Assembly: GCF_000706645.1 (NCBI RefSeq)
Contig: NZ_KL407338.1
Span: 139,405 to 203,404 of the forward strand
Reading direction: 5' to 3'
DNA: 64,000 nt
Origin: Bartonella rochalimae ATCC BAA-1498
GTDB lineage: Bacteria > Pseudomonadota > Alphaproteobacteria > Rhizobiales > Rhizobiaceae
Shown here: positions 49,423 through 63,709 of the stretch, piece after piece
How the letters are laid out: each line of letters starts with the position of its first letter
Position numbering within the stretch: the stretch's first letter is position 1
Position numbers and translations under genes: made by a program
The notes under the pieces: model-generated
Databases searched by the model: none
What the model saw: the letters and a program-made list of their open reading frames with translations, nothing else
What the model was told of the DNA's origin: nothing

Positions 49423-50427
49423 ATGAAAAAAAGTAAAGATATTTTGCATATTCAGTCCTGTGATAAGCAGGGACGAGTTATGGATGCAGTGCCAAAACAG
49501 TGGGTTTATGATTTTCTTCCTTGTTCTTTATGGCTATATGCTCAATTAGCTCGATGGGACAGGCCTATTGGATGGAAACTATTGATGTGGCCTTGTTTTT
49601 GGTCAACAACTATGGCTATTTCTTGTGAGATGTCACAATTATCTATTTTGTCGAGTGTTGTTAATTGGATTTGGTATCTTTTTTTATTCTTCGTAGGCTC
49701 TATAGCTATGCGGGGTGCAGGTTGTACATGGAATGACCTTGTTGATCAAGAAATTGATTCTAAAATAGAACGAACACGTTCTCGCCCATTGCCCACTGGT
49801 CAAGTGAGTCGGTTTCAGGCAAAAATTTTTATATTGATACAATGTATCATAGGCCTAGGTGTTTTATTGCAATTTAATAAATTTACTTTTTTTTTAGGTC
49901 TTTCATCACTGGTAGCAGTTATACTTTATCCTTTTATGAAACGTATAACAAATTGGCCGCAGTTTTTTTTAGGTATTGCATTTAATTGGGGAGCATTAAT
50001 GGGATGGGCTGCGGTACATGGGAGTTTAAGTTGGGCTCCAATAGCACTTTATGGAGGCTCAATTCTATGGACGATAGGATATGATACAATTTATGCTCAT
50101 CAAGATAAAGATGATGATGTGATTGTTGGTGTTCGTTCTACGGCACTTCTCTTTGGTAAAAAAACGAAATATGCATTGATATTTTTATATGGTGGTTTTG
50201 TGATTTTAACCAGCTTGGCATTTTATTTGGCTCAAGTTCCTATTCTGAGTTTTTTAGGGATTTTTATCGCAGCGATCCATATGTTTATACAAATTAAAGT
50301 TATTGATATTGACAATAATTTACAATGTTTACGACTTTTCAAGTCTAATTCGTTTGTTGGTTTTTTGATCTTTGTTGGTTTGGTATGCGGAGAAATCTCG
50401 GCGGTATTATATTCTGTGATTTTGTGA
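49423..50427 (+). CDS. ubiA: 4-hydroxybenzoate polyprenyltransferase
   Basis: A 334-residue polytopic membrane enzyme with the two aspartate-rich prenyl-diphosphate motifs: NDLVDQEIDSKIERTRSRPL and YDTIYAHQDKDDD. It joins the polyprenyl tail to 4-hydroxybenzoate in ubiquinone synthesis. The N-terminal 30 residues are cytoplasmic and poorly conserved. The substrate derives from chorismate, which makes the aroC pseudogene at 53447-54475 relevant. Confidence 0.94.
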   Translation: MKKSKDILHIQSCDKQGRVMDAVPKQWVYDFLPCSLWLYAQLARWDRPIGWKLLMWPCFWSTTMAISCEMSQLSILSSVVNWIWYLFLFFVGSIAMRGAGCTWNDLVDQEIDSKIERTRSRPLPTGQVSRFQAKIFILIQCIIGLGVLLQFNKFTFFLGLSSLVAVILYPFMKRITNWPQFFLGIAFNWGALMGWAAVHGSLSWAPIALYGGSILWTIGYDTIYAHQDKDDDVIVGVRSTALLFGKKTKYALIFLYGGFVILTSLAFYLAQVPILSFLGIFIAAIHMFIQIKVIDIDNNLQCLRLFKSNSFVGFLIFVGLVCGEISAVLYSVIL

Positions 50428-52353: not shown

Positions 52354-52476
52354 GATTGTTTATAAGACGAAATTATAGTTTTGATTTGATTTTAAACCAA
52401 CTGCTTGAAGAAAAAGTTTACCTGTGCCATAGGCAAGTGGGTAATATTAATTTTTTGTTGCGATGAGGCAATGTTA

Positions 52477-53295
52477 ATGGCTGATAGTAATAATTTATTA
52501 TGCGGTAAGCGTGGTCTAATTTTGGGGTTGGCCAATAATCGATCTATTGCATGGGGAATAGCTAAGGCAGCAAGTGCTGCAGGAGCAGAGCTTGCTTTTA
52601 CTTATCAAGGTGAAGCATTGAAGAAGCGTGTTGAACCTTTGGCCGAAGAAGTAAGAGGAATTGTTTGTGGTCATTGTGATGTATCTGATAGTAAATCTAT
52701 TGATGCAGTTTTTAATGAAATAGAAAGAAAATGGGGTAAGCTTGATTTTTTAGTTCATGCTATTGGTTTTTCTGACAAAGATGAATTAAGCGGTCGTTAC
52801 ATTGATGTCAGCGAATCAAATTTTATGATGACAATGAATATTTCTGTTTATTCTTTGACAGCTCTTACACAGCGTGCAGAAAAGTTGATGTCAGGTGGTG
52901 GTTCGATTTTAACATTGACTTATTATGGTGCTGAGAAAGTTGTTCCTAACTATAATGTGATGGGGGTTGCTAAGGCTGCTCTTGAGGCTAGCGTAAAATA
53001 TTTAGCTGTAGATTTAGGACCGAAGAATATTCGTGTTAATGCTTTGTCAGCAGGGCCTATAAAAACGTTGGCTGCTTCCGGTATTGGTGACTTTCGTTAT
53101 ATTCTTAAATGGAATGAGTATAATGCTCCTTTACGTCGTACAGTGACAATAGAAGAGGTTGGTGATTCTGCGCTATACTTTCTTTCAGATTTATCTCGTT
53201 CTGTTACGGGAGAAGTACATCATGTAGATTCAGGGTATCATATTATAGGTATGAAAGCCGTTGATGCACCAGATATTTCCGTTATTAAAGAGTAA
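52477..53295 (+). CDS. fabI: enoyl-[acyl-carrier-protein] reductase (NADH)
   Basis: A 272-residue SDR enzyme of fatty-acid elongation. It begins after ATG 52477 with the nucleotide loop RGLILGLANNRSIAWGIA and carries the FabI active site as TYYGAEKVVPNYNVMGVAK (Tyr-x6-Lys). LSAGPIKTLAASGI is also typical. An upstream TTG at 52405 would add 24 untypical residues, while GAGG sits about 10 bases before 52477. The gene ends about 150 bases before the aroC remnant. Confidence 0.94.
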   Translation: MADSNNLLCGKRGLILGLANNRSIAWGIAKAASAAGAELAFTYQGEALKKRVEPLAEEVRGIVCGHCDVSDSKSIDAVFNEIERKWGKLDFLVHAIGFSDKDELSGRYIDVSESNFMMTMNISVYSLTALTQRAEKLMSGGGSILTLTYYGAEKVVPNYNVMGVAKAALEASVKYLAVDLGPKNIRVNALSAGPIKTLAASGIGDFRYILKWNEYNAPLRRTVTIEEVGDSALYFLSDLSRSVTGEVHHVDSGYHIIGMKAVDAPDISVIKE

Positions 53296-53446
53296 GGGGT
53301 GAGCTTACTTTATCAGTAACAATTTGACTACAGTTGAAATGGTTAATAATAGTCTTAAGTGAGATGATCTTGCTTGCAGATTAATGTACTTGATTATCTG
53401 TATTTTGTGTGCTGTGGTTTTGTATATTTAAAAAATGAGACTGTTT

Positions 53447-54475
53447 CCATATCGCCTATACATTGATCATTTATTTCGTGTGACAATATGGTATGAGAAT
53501 ATGGAGTTAAGTTGTGCGTTGAGTACATTATTGAGGATTGTTCTCTAGGGATTATTTTCACTTTTACAGAAATTCAGTCATATCTTGATAATGGTGAGCA
53601 GAACAATCAAAATTAAAGCATAACGTCAAGAATTAAGTCAGGTAGAAGTTCTTTCAGGAGTTATTACTCAGGTTGATGCTATAACATGAGTAACAATAGG
53701 GATGCTAGTTTCAATATTTATTTAGGGTACAGATCAGTGATTAGAAGATTATAATATAATAGTTAATTATTATTATCTAAGTTATGCAGGTTTTATATAT
53801 GATGTTAAATATGAAATTCTTTATTGTTATAATGGTGAGCGTACTGCAACAGCTGAAATAATAGAGCATGTTGCGCTAGGTATATTTGCACGCAAAATTA
53901 TTCTTGATTTGATTGTTTGGGGGGCGGTGATAGTGATTATCCCTAATCAATAATTGTGGTCGATGGAAGTGGTCAGAGGTCGATAATAATCCTTTTTTAC
54001 ATTTTCTGCTTATGAAATGTTTTCACTGATTATATAAATAAACTACTTCCATTGATATTATTGCAGAAAATGTTTCATTATGGTTAGGAAAACTTAATTT
54101 ATGCAAGACTTGATCAGCATATTGTATCATTTTAAATGTTAATGAATACAGTTTAGGATATAAAATTTGTGAAGGCTATGCTGTTACCTGTTGGATCAGT
54201 GAAGGAAATATAGCTGAAATGCGAATGATAAGTGATAAAAATTACATTTTTAACCGATATTATAAACAGAATATCAAGGAAATAGCCGATTTTTGTGTAT
54301 TTTATAGTTAAGCCCATATTATTGATTTTAGCTTTTTATTGTTCAATTGATGTTGATGGTAAAAACGTAGATGTTATCACGAACGAGTGTTGCGATTCGG
54401 ATTATTATTTTTAGTGAATCAATAGTTTCTTGTGCTATTGCTGATCATTAGCTGAGGAATTGCGATCAAATTGGT
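53447..54475 (+). pseudogene. aroC: chorismate synthase pseudogene
   Basis: The stretch from fabI to ribB has no long ORF, but pieced frames follow AroC from end to end. IDHLFRVTIWYEN matches the usual GHLFRVTTWGES start; FTFTEIQSYLDN, VEVLSGVITQ, FIYDVKYEI, IFARKIILDLIVWGAV, GRWKWSEVDNNPF, NIAEMRMISDKN and AIADH-LRNCDQIG occur in the correct order and spacing over about 1,030 bases. There are many stops and frame changes, and the FMN/phosphate motif RGGGRSSARE has decayed to YNGERTATAE. The gene is therefore long dead. AroC normally makes chorismate, the precursor of 4-hydroxybenzoate, folate and aromatic amino acids. Confidence 0.9.
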
Positions 54476-54497
54476 TGTATAGGAAGGAAAAGCAATA

Positions 54498-55607
54498 ATG
54501 TATAATCAGAAAAAGGTTGTTTCTGCTATTCAGGCTTTTGAACGCGGTGAAATTGTTGTGGTTATGGATGATAATGATCGCGAAAATGAAGGTGATTTAA
54601 TCGTTGCTGCTGTCCATTGTACAGAAAAAAAAATGGCATTTATTATGCGTTATACATCCGGTATTATTTGTGCTCCTTTGCCGAAGGAGAAAGCGCAACG
54701 ATTGAATTTAACTCCTATGGTATCAGATAATGATTCAATGCATTGTACCAAGTTTACTGTTACTGTTGATTTTAAATATGGAATAACAACAGGGATTTCA
54801 GCACACGATCGTACATTAGCAGTGCGTAATCTTGCTAATCCAAATGCTAGTGCTAATGATTTTGTGCGTCCGGGACATATTTTTCCTTTAATTGCACATG
54901 AGGGTGGTGTTTTGATGCGATCAGGACATACTGAGGCTGCGGTTGATTTATGTAAATTAGCTGGTTTGTCACCAGTTGGTGTGATTGGTGAACTAGTCAA
55001 TGATGATGGCAGTGTTAAACATGGAGATGAGGTTATAAAATTTGCGCAAGATCATCAGTTGCATACAATAACAGTTGCTGATCTTATTGCTTATCGCCAG
55101 TGTAAAGAGACGCTAATAAAACATGTCGGAGAAATGCAAATTGAAACATTCGTAGGGCCAGCTGTGGTTCAAAGTTATCAACTGCCTTGGGAGAGAGTTC
55201 AACATGTTGCGATTGTTTTTGGTGATATCCGTGATGGTGAGGATATTCCAGTACGTTTGCATCGTGAGAACATTTTGAATGATGTTTTTGGTCAAGCTTC
55301 AAATATTGAAGTTATTATGCGTCGTATGGTAGAAAAGGAAAAACGGGGTGTATTTGTTTATCTGCGAGGAGGATTTGTTGGTGTTGATTGTCAATCAGCT
55401 ATTGATAATCAGGAAATAACAAAAAGAGATTTAGAAAATCATATGCAGGCGATTGAACGTGAAAAAGAGTGGCGCCAAATTGGTTTAGGAGCACAAATTT
55501 TGAGACATTTAGGGATTAGTTCTGTTATTGTTTATGCTTCTAAGGAACGTCATTATGTTGGTTTAGAAGGTTTTGGAATTCGCATATCTAGAACAGATAT
55601 CTTGTGA
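54498..55607 (+). CDS. ribB: 3,4-dihydroxy-2-butanone-4-phosphate synthase with degenerate RibA-like domain
   Basis: A 369-residue protein. Residues 1-205 form the RibB domain: [41 protein letters not shown] and [20 protein letters not shown], with the acidic and histidine residues needed to make the four-carbon unit of riboflavin. The second half resembles GTP cyclohydrolase II ([14 protein letters not shown]) but lacks the zinc cysteines (CxxxxxxxxxxCxC) of RibA. It therefore should act only as RibB. Such RibB-X fusions are known in rhizobia. GGAAGG lies 10 bases upstream of the ATG. It is followed 7 bases later by xseB. Confidence 0.9.
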
Positions 55608-58264: not shown

Positions 58265-59012
58265 ATGGCAGTCACAAAAAGACTGGATGTTCTCTTAGTT
58301 GAAATTTTTTTTTGTAACGCGTTCACAGGCACGTGATGCAGTGGCACGAAAAACAGTTAAAGTGAATGGAGAAATTGTTTTTAAAGCTGGAAAAATGATT
58401 CCTGATGACGCGACGATTACGGTTTCTGATTCTGCGCAAAGTTATGTATCTCGTGCAGCATTGAAACTTCTTTATGCACTTGATGTGTTTCCTGTGATGA
58501 CAAATAAAATTACTGCAATTGATGTTGGTGCATCGACGGGTGGTTTTACACAAGTTCTTTTAGAACGAGGCGCTTCTTATGTCATTGCTCTTGATGTTGG
58601 TCACAATCAATTTGATGTTCGTTTATCTGGTAACGATGCGATAACTTTACTAGAGGGTCTGAATGTTAGAGATTTGAAACAGGAACATTTAAATGGTCAT
58701 GAGATTGATCTTATTGTATCAGATGTCAGTTTTATTTCTCTTAAACTTGCATTACCATCGGTTTTATCTTTAACAAAAAAGAGTGCTCAAGCAGTTTTAT
58801 TGGTAAAACCTCAATTTGAAGTTGGTCGAGCGGGTATTGGTAAAGGAGGAATATTAAAAGATCCGTTAGTAGCCAAAAGAGTTGCTGAAGAACTTTTTGA
58901 TTGGCTGAATACTCAAATAGGATGGACAGCAAAAGGTTTACTTCCTTCACCTATTACAGGTGGTGATGGTAATTTAGAATATTTGTTATTCGGAGAAAAA
59001 AGTGAGCAGTGA
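58265..59012 (+). pseudogene. tlyA: TlyA-family rRNA methyltransferase, frameshifted at a T9 tract
   Basis: Translation from ATG 58265 gives AVTKRLDVLLVE and then loses frame at nine Ts (58305-58313). From there the second frame continues FFVTRSQARDAVARKTVKV with the S4 RNA-binding domain, and the FtsJ methyltransferase domain AIDVGASTGGFTQVLLERG, ALDVGHNQFD, IVSDVSFISLKLALPS and VKPQFEVGRAGIGKGG. Removing one T restores a 248-residue TlyA. Members methylate ribose in 16S and 23S rRNA or are called hemolysins. It may be a true pseudogene, a slippage-corrected gene or a sequencing error. It lies in an operon after dxs and overlaps the next gene by 11 bases. Confidence 0.85.
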
Positions 59013-60254
59013 TGTTGTAATTGATCATGTTGGCGTGAATGGTCATGGTATTGCCAAAACAGCATATGGTTCAATTTCTGTACCTTTTACTCTGCCTGGA
59101 GAGGTTGTTAATGTTGCCCTTCATGGAAAATACGGTACACCTATTACTCTAAAAGAGAAATCGCTAGAGCGTGTTGATGCTGTTTGTCAACATTTTGAGG
59201 TATGTGGAGGATGTATGCTTCAGCATTGGCATTTTGATGCTTATCGCTCTTGGAAGCGGCAATTGGTTGTTGATGCATTTAAAAGATATGGTCTTGATGC
59301 TGTTATTTCTCCATTAATTGAATGTGGAAATTATACTCGTCGACAAGTTACTTTAACAGCATCTGTGATTCAAAAAAACCATATTGTTGGTTTTAATCGT
59401 TATCGATCTCCTGACATTATAGCTATTAAAGAATGTCCAGTTACTCGTTCAGAGATTTTGTCTAAATTGGATGATATTAGGGTTATATGCGCTCTTTTAA
59501 GAAATAACGCCAAACGGTTTCATGTAACAGTAACAGCTGTCGAAAACGGTTTTGATGTTGCTTTAAGTAATTGTGTTGTCCAAAATGAGTTTACTCGTCA
59601 AAAAATGATACGTGTAGCTCTTTCATGTGGAATTACACGTTTATCCATTGAAGGTGAGGTCTTAGTTGAACAAGAAAAACCGGTGATCCACTTTGGAGAT
59701 GTTTGTGTTGAGTTTCCTATTGGTGGTTTTCTTCAAGCAACTTTTGAAGCGGAAACTGTTATGGGTGAGATTATTTTAGCTCATTTAAAAAAGCAAAAAA
59801 TGCTGCTGATTTATTTGCAGGAGTAGGGACTTTTACTTTACGCATGGCGAAAAAGATGAATGTTCATGCAATAGAAAACAATGGAGAAGCTCTAGCTAAC
59901 CTTGATCAGGCAGCACGTATTGCTACTGGTTTAAAGACAGTGGTTTGTGAAAAACGTGACTTATTTCGTCGTCCACTTTCTGCAAAGGAGCTTGAATGCT
60001 TTGATAGTGTTGTTTTTGATCCACCACGGTCTGGAGCAGAGGAGCAGGTAAATGAGTTGGACAAGACAACGGTAGCACGTGTGGTAGCTGTTTCGTGCAA
60101 TCCTATTACATTGGCTCGTGATTTATCACTTCTTGTTGCTGGTGGTTATATAATTGAAAAAGTTGTATCAATTGATCAATTTTTATGGTCACCTCATATT
60201 GAAATTGTTGCAACTTTAAGAAAACAAAAAACGAAGAAAAGTTGGAAGCTTTAG
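59002..60254 (+). pseudogene. TrmA/RlmD-family RNA uracil-5-methyltransferase, frameshifted at an A tract
   Basis: The first frame (GTG start at 59002) has the iron-sulfur motif CQHFEVCGGCMLQHW and a further KECPVT cysteine. It then reads HLKKQKMLLIYLQ and stops at 59826. The other frame supplies AKNAADLFAGVGTFTLRMAK, with the SAM-binding motif, and continues through DSVVFDPPRSGAEEQV and the catalytic VSCNPITLARDL to 60254. Adding one A in either A6 run (59787-59792 or 59795-59800) restores a 417-residue protein. It would make m5U in rRNA or tRNA; the exact site is undetermined. The caveat about sequencing error given for tlyA applies here too. Confidence 0.86.
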
Positions 60255-62773: not shown

Positions 62774-63709
62774 ATGTCTGTTTCAAGAGAATTATTGGTT
62801 AAAAATGGTAAATTAAGCTCGATAGTAGCTAAGATTTATAATTATATTACATTGATGAAGCCGCGAGTTATGTCGCTTGTTATATTTACAGCTCTGGTTG
62901 GGTTAATATTATCACCTGGTGCTATGAGTCCGCTGCATGCTTTTTTAGCTATTTTGTGTATAGCTTTAGGTGGTGGTGGTGCGGGAACGCTTAATATGTG
63001 GTATGAATCTGATATTGATGCGATGATGAAACGTACCCAAAAGCGTCCTATTCCGACTGGTAAAATCAGCCGTAGGCAAGCATTTATTTTTGGTTTAGCT
63101 CTTTCTATATTCTCAGTTTTGATTATGGGAATTTTCATTAATTGGTTTACGGCGTTTTTTCTTACTTTTACAATTTTCTTCTATGTTGTTATTTACACAA
63201 TTTGGTTAAAGCCTATAACATCTCAAAATATTGTGATTGGTGGTGCAGCTGGAGCTTTTCCGCCAATGATTGGGTGGGCAGCTGCAACAGGTACAGTAAG
63301 TTTTGAGAGTTTCCTCTTATTTTTAATCATTTTTATGTGGACTCCGCCACATTTTTGGTCTCTTTCTCTCTTCTCATCTTTTGATTATGATGTAGCGGGT
63401 ATTCCTATGATGCCTAATATGCGAGGAGAGCAATCGACGAAAAACCAGATTTTGATTTATACGATTATTATGGCAATATGCGCTATTGGACCTTATATTA
63501 TAGGTTTTTCAGGTATTATCTATGGTATTTTTTCAACAATTTTAAGCACTATTTTTATCTATCTTTCTTATCGTTTATGGACAGCTAAAGGATATGATGA
63601 AACAGTTGTTATGGCAAAAAAAGTATTTTTCTTTTCGCTATTTTATTTATCTGCTATATTTGGGACCCTTTTAGTTGAATCCTTTCTTAAGCAATTTATC
63701 ATTTTTTAG
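62774..63709 (+). CDS. ctaB: protoheme IX farnesyltransferase (heme O synthase)
   Basis: A 311-residue polytopic membrane enzyme of the UbiA superfamily. It begins with the typical YNYITLMKPRVMSLVIFTAL, has NMWYESDIDAMMKRTQKRPI as the first Asp motif and SFDYDVAGIPMMPNMRGE as the second region. MWTPPHFWSLSLF is a CtaB hallmark. It farnesylates heme b for heme-copper oxidases. No oxidase subunit gene lies on either side within the window. Confidence 0.95.
   Translation: MSVSRELLVKNGKLSSIVAKIYNYITLMKPRVMSLVIFTALVGLILSPGAMSPLHAFLAILCIALGGGGAGTLNMWYESDIDAMMKRTQKRPIPTGKISRRQAFIFGLALSIFSVLIMGIFINWFTAFFLTFTIFFYVVIYTIWLKPITSQNIVIGGAAGAFPPMIGWAAATGTVSFESFLLFLIIFMWTPPHFWSLSLFSSFDYDVAGIPMMPNMRGEQSTKNQILIYTIIMAICAIGPYIIGFSGIIYGIFSTILSTIFIYLSYRLWTAKGYDETVVMAKKVFFFSLFYLSAIFGTLLVESFLKQFIIF

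Follow-up and report, generated by a model that had tools for sequence, protein, structure and literature searches.

What lies between fabI and ribB in Bartonella rochalimae ATCC BAA-1498, and where does the ring of its ubiquinone come from if it no longer makes chorismate? A sequence-only reading of this 64,000-nucleotide stretch (hereafter the window, whose positions we use throughout) had proposed that the gap holds a full-length ruin of the chorismate synthase gene aroC at 53447-54475, with many stops and a destroyed active-site motif, while ubiA, whose product uses chorismate-derived 4-hydroxybenzoate, stands intact at 49423-50427. We followed this proposal through the window, through the whole genome to which it belongs (G000), and through a sample of 71 Bartonella genomes.

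The aroC relic between fabI and ribB

The gap examined (window 53293-54497) is bordered by two intact open frames on the forward strand, fabI at 52405-53295 and ribB at 54498-55607, whose names we took from the sequence-only reading. We aligned it, by three-frame, frameshift-tolerant local alignment, with the intact AroC of B. melophagi K-2C (G029; genomes were named by identical gap sequence). Residues 8 to 363 of the 364 in the query were matched along 53468-54478, also on the forward strand, with 158 of 329 aligned codons identical (48%) and 27 residues deleted. The score was 493, compared with 38 for the reverse complement and a maximum of 50 in 200 dinucleotide-preserving shuffles (mean = 30.6, SD = 3.5). 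A second AroC query, from G001, scored 503 (shuffle maximum = 51, reverse complement = 46). The frame is wrecked by 7 stops and 9 frameshifts in the alignment to G029 AroC, and the GESHG and GGGRSSAR motifs of that protein are both wiped out. DNA alignment among relatives traced the old start codon to near 53450, and the interval first proposed was correct to within a few bases. The relic occupies the same position between fabI and ribB as aroC does in the genomes that still have it (the keepers).

The many stops are the sole point in favor of taking the gap for ordinary noncoding DNA or a sequencing artifact, an idea that is close to inconceivable in view of the score of 493 against at most 50 in the shuffles. 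Shuffles and reverse complement together exclude chance similarity. The lesions are too many for sequencing error, which is further excluded by five indels, one of them a 14-base deletion, that the relic has in common with those of Bartonella sp. G70 (G010) and Bartonella sp. AR 15-3 (G041). Because these five indels are common to all three ruins, aroC was dead before G000, G010, and G041 (hereafter the trio) split. The sequence at 53468-54478 is thus, with certainty, a decayed unitary aroC pseudogene, and the original proposal of a full-length ruin with many stops and a lost motif is borne out by the frameshift-aware search.

Loss of the chorismate branch and the source of 4-hydroxybenzoate

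We searched all 71 genomes for aroC, ubiC, aroA, and cmk, and 20 chosen genomes for the other families. A full-length, stop-free aroC match was present in 63 of the 71, in agreement with the earlier belief that other bartonellae carry the gene. Broken pieces were found in four genomes (G000, G006, G042, and G015, the last being B. clarridgeiae ATCC 51734), and the same search gave no aroC match in another four (G002, G010, G041, and G046). Across the whole G000 genome (1,534,143 bases, 3 contigs), the ruin was the single AroC match. This excludes a second AroC-family copy and removes the second chorismate synthase that the sequence-only reading had offered as one way around the loss.

Comparison of the locus showed that fabI and ribB border the same gap, of 460 to 2545 bases, in G000 and in each of the 19 genomes set beside it, with an open aroC in 12 of these 20. 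Relics scoring above all random sequences were found in G006, G010, G041, G042, G015, and G046 (scores of 110 to 1539, null maxima of 38 to 55), that of G046 being the short remnant with a score of 110. In the gap of G002, the score of 42 did not reach the best of 100 random sequences (48), and a relic there was dropped as a candidate. RibB, used as the query for named relatives, was 97% identical between G000 and G70, 96% between G000 and AR 15-3, and 93% between G000 and B. clarridgeiae.

In a six-protein tree (1955 columns, 20 genomes), the genomes that lost the pathway (the losers) fell on four branches. G000, G010, G041, G015, and G042 form one clade (support = 100); G002 groups with the keepers G007 and G008 (support = 100), and G046 groups with the keeper G047 (support = 95). 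The deep placement of the remaining loser, G006, is weak (support = 38). The pathway has been lost on at least four Bartonella lineages.

The sequence-only reading had pointed to the other pathway genes as the next place to look. Profile search detected no UbiC, AroB, or AroE in G000, where aroA is open. Of DAHP synthase, three stop-containing fragments are left, and the shikimate kinase profile gave only a 40-residue match within a 657-residue frame of a type that keepers also have. Relics of AroK and AroB remain in place (L076:18978-19841, G000:C1), adjoining a gene that we take for xerD, and match the position of the intact genes in G012. Loss of the DAHP synthase-AroB-AroE-AroK-AroC-UbiC branch from G000 is nearly certain.

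In B. clarridgeiae, the pathway is at an early stage of decay (L060, L041, L081, L082, and L087): there is one frameshift in aroC, one stop in ubiC, and stops in aroK, the aroB and aroE frames are shortened, DAHP synthase is split, and the catalytic sites of AroA are kept. Single frameshifts in this draft genome may be sequencing errors. A frame break in aroE (L085:1476-2304) was also seen in G012, whose aroC is intact, and is either an error or early decay.

The ubiA gene, encoding the 4-hydroxybenzoate prenyltransferase, is open at 49423-50427 on the forward strand, as first described. Its dN/dS in the trio is 0.101 (2ΔlnL = 108.8 against 1), and all 20 genomes tested have a UbiA match. Such strong purifying selection indicates that UbiA stayed useful after chorismate was lost. 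The search for chorismate users covered UbiC, TrpE/PabB-type enzymes, and chorismate mutase. A TrpE/PabB-type enzyme was absent from 18 of the 20 genomes tested and present in G003 and G063, both large; chorismate mutase exceeded the cut-off in 8 of the 20, G000 not being among them. Within the families searched, UbiC, and hence ubiquinone, appears to be the main recognized user of chorismate in most of the bartonellae tested. If chorismate fed mainly ubiquinone in these bacteria, and if 4-hydroxybenzoate can be obtained from the host or vector, the branch would have become dispensable, and UbiA would now prenylate 4-hydroxybenzoate taken from outside. Of the two ways out first suggested, then, an outside aromatic precursor gains from the additional loss of UbiC and the other searched steps and from the selection on UbiA, and the second synthase falls with the single AroC match.

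A known case is similar. Rickettsia keeps UbiA, lacks chorismate synthesis and UbiC, and is inferred to import host 4-hydroxybenzoate (PMC5615194). G000 likewise has an intact UbiA, no chorismate synthase, and no UbiC, and would take 4-hydroxybenzoate from outside. Unlike in Rickettsia, the loss in Bartonella is recent enough to have left ruins and occurred within a single genus on four or more branches; the route persists in most Bartonella species, and AroA outlives the pathway in losers. By this analogy, the respiratory quinone ring of G000 is probably drawn from the host. Should the species make 4-hydroxybenzoate by a chorismate-free route, nothing from the host would be needed. Some room for this is left by 14 large-genome bartonellae (G003, G004, G014, G043-G045, and G056-G063), which have a full aroC and no UbiC match, so that bartonellae may have another, unrecognized source of 4-hydroxybenzoate. 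Chorismate synthesis is open to those 14 and not to G000, however, and Rickettsia, which lacks the same steps, is taken to import the compound (PMC5615194). We find such a route quite improbable. Taken jointly, the aroC pseudogene, the loss of the branch, and the reliance on outside 4-hydroxybenzoate form an account that we hold to be very likely.

Three further observations concern ubiA and its surroundings. In G037, which has aroC and ubiC, ubiA is interrupted by frame changes (G037:C1:439587-440359, L053) that resemble homopolymer errors and may be real. About 13 kb past ubiA, a second match to the UbiA superfamily (PF01040) lies at window 62879-63631 and is presumably a heme prenyltransferase. 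Two adjacent frames at window 59002-60254 (274 and 136 aa), which we take to be of an RNA methyltransferase family, resemble one interrupted gene.

AroA after the loss of its pathway

With AroB, AroE, AroK, and AroC lost, AroA is left without a pathway to supply its substrate or use its product. The gene is nevertheless a full open frame in G000, G010, G041, G015, G006, and G046, that is, in three of the four loser lineages. In G042 the frame is broken close to its beginning, and in G002 only a relic of the gene is left (score = 329, null maximum = 49), so some losers have dispensed with it.

Residues were mapped in the numbering of CP4 5-enolpyruvylshikimate-3-phosphate (EPSP) synthase onto positions that we take to be those of the active site; position 433 (Phe in CP4) was left out of the list. 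The G000 AroA scores 343.9 bits, above the curated family cut-off of 287.25. It is full length, like the class II enzyme CP4 of Agrobacterium, which is also its best solved-structure match (2ggd and 2gg4, residues 5-441, E = 3.3e-154). Unlike CP4, it has Glu354, Arg128, Gln175, Arg33, Arg200, and Arg405 replaced (E354I, R128Y, Q175P, R33K, R200Q, and R405Q) and has neither a route to its substrate nor an AroC. The catalytic role of Glu354 is described in PMC3371024. Thus, the protein passes the family cut-off and lacks the catalytic and substrate-binding residues, as well as the pathway, of a functional EPSP synthase.

The relatives have altered the site in their own ways. Position 354 is Thr in G010 and Val in G041 and position 128 is Cys and Leu, respectively, with Gln175 and Arg200 retained in both. 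In G046, Lys28 is replaced by Gln, Arg128 by Tyr, Gln175 by His, and Arg200 by Pro, with Glu354 kept and a three-residue in-frame deletion beside position 100. In G006, Glu354 and Arg128 are unchanged, Leu replaces Ser29, and Gln replaces Arg33. B. clarridgeiae, with fewer pathway lesions, keeps all listed sites. Among the 13 arginines that do not vary across the 12 keepers, G000 has replaced 10, G046 has replaced 8, G010 and G041 have each replaced 6, G006 has replaced 4, and G015 has replaced 1. Pseudoenzymes in general keep fold-type residues and lose catalytic ones. The G000 AroA is similar in both respects and reads as an EPSP synthase turning into a pseudoenzyme, a class that we regard as putative.

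We then asked whether the protein is still under selection. The dN/dS model gives values that are too low when drift is AT-biased (neutral mean = 0.76), and results were therefore judged against simulation and the aroC ruin and not only against 1. AroA dN/dS was 0.284 in the trio (2ΔlnL = 53.2 against 1), below all 14 estimates from neutral stop-free simulations (0.54-0.96, mean = 0.76), in which neutral change is probably overstated because the GC content of aroA exceeds that of the ruin. For three keepers taken together it was 0.137, and the higher value in the trio counts against maintained constraint. A larger tree gave the trio 0.305 internally and 0.470 on its stem, compared with 0.190 for G015 and 0.104 for keepers. 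Separate branch values for G046 and G006 (0.136 and 0.094) mix time before and after the loss and prove nothing by themselves. Across the trio, 72 AroA residues vary, compared with a mean of 212 and a minimum of 191 in 40 neutral runs, as do 4 of 41 glycines (mean = 20.9 and minimum = 13 in the same number of runs). Between G000 and G010, divergence since the split is 0.172 in the ruin; in aroA it is 0.054 at first, 0.077 at second, and 0.127 at third codon positions.

The two genes also differ in what they have lost. Keeper-invariant glycines of AroA are changed at 1/30 sites in G000, 0/30 in G010, and 1/30 in G041, and those of the aroC ruin at 21/29, 12/23, and 8/21, respectively (Fisher test for G000, P value = 1.5e-8). 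Arginine loss in G000 amounts to 10/13 in AroA and 9/16 in the ruin. Within the trio, changes in AroA fell equally on keeper-invariant sites (37/234) and on other sites (35/208), which indicates that AroA is no longer constrained as an EPSP synthase. The constraint still present resembles one on the fold. From these comparisons of sequences, we judge it probable that AroA is a constrained protein other than an EPSP synthase.

AroA may instead have gone on working as a normal EPSP synthase for a while after the death of aroC and be decaying only now, with no reason for its being kept. A selected period followed by a neutral one can yield an intermediate dN/dS, the even spread of changes over invariant and other sites agrees with this, and B. 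clarridgeiae has every listed catalytic residue. Such late decay is made less likely by the fact that, without AroC, nothing is known to consume EPSP. Moreover, aroC was dead before the trio split, and during neutral evolution aroA should have collected stops and indels: about 15 nonsense hits are expected and none is seen, and the trio has no aroA indel, compared with 24 that arose in the aroC ruin after the split (our own count; one is also in G015). G046, with only a short aroC relic, also still has an open aroA. We consider late decay rather unlikely. Protein-level purifying selection appears to have persisted in AroA after the loss of catalysis, a late-decay mixture being less probable.

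The place of the gene suggests another reason for an open frame. In 19 of 19 genomes, the stop codon of aroA runs into the start codon of cmk with a 4-base overlap (TTGA in 17, ATGA in G003 and G063), preceded in every one by a purine-rich, GGAGG-like site. The frame could thus be selected only as a carrier of ribosomes to cmk, whose ribosome site lies inside aroA, and the protein not at all; the absence of aroA stops and indels from the trio fits this as well. A pure conveyor predicts free amino acid change, and such change is not seen, given a dN/dS below every neutral simulation, 72 variable residues against a minimum of 191, and 1 of 30 invariant glycines changed. The comparable case of aroE and coaE serves as a control. 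These genes overlap likewise (ATGA) in the six keepers fetched (6/6), yet G041, G042, G006, and G015, in which the coaE starts keep the overlap, have an aroE that is either missing or broken. G002 also retains its cmk start behind a ruined aroA. A coupled leader frame was sought there and rejected: the open run to the cmk start is 99 codons, one of 107 exists in a different frame over that stretch, and no start in it has a clear ribosome site. The aroE-coaE control and G002 weaken coupling as the sole reason for AroA, and we regard it as possible but doubtful.

AroA would then be retained as a full frame ahead of cmk and rpsA for a noncatalytic reason, either a new role or a need to be translated and to fold safely ahead of these genes. 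That it has been kept with a new role, as a noncatalytic protein in three independent Bartonella lineages, shedding its anion-binding arginines and preserving the fold, is a reading that we put forward tentatively, with somewhat less than even confidence.

Relation to earlier work and meaning

An aroC pseudogene with loss of its branch is a known kind of event, and pathway loss in Bartonella is not new as such. The shikimate pathway was incomplete in 91 of 295 host-associated proteomes, and the Background of that paper names Bartonella as one of the genomes that have lost discrete pathway elements (PMC3018139). The parts of PMC3018139 used here give no species, locus, lineage count, or selection test for Bartonella. 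The aroC of B. quintana appears as BQ03510 in an expression table of PMC3595295, and neither shikim- nor chorismate nor ubiquinone appears in the main text of PMC3610622, which deals with 16 Bartonella genomes. In open-access titles and the starts of abstracts, with subscription papers outside the search, we found no report of chorismate-branch loss in these Bartonella or of an EPSP-synthase pseudoenzyme. The new, testable part is the retained AroA, which lacks catalytic residues and appears to be under protein-level selection.

Two cautions follow. AroA was shortlisted as a drug target for B. bacilliformis (PMC7416641), and its active site is altered in at least three lineages of the genus, which calls for care in extending such a target to Bartonella at large. 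Furthermore, a profile score alone is no proof of function, as the orphan AroA passes a curated cut-off without its catalytic residues.

For the biology of the genus, these genomes present one pathway loss at several stages. Bartonella can be cultured, and the dependence on outside 4-hydroxybenzoate that was inferred for Rickettsia becomes directly testable in it. The same losses offer a natural experiment on why one enzyme, AroA, outlives its pathway.
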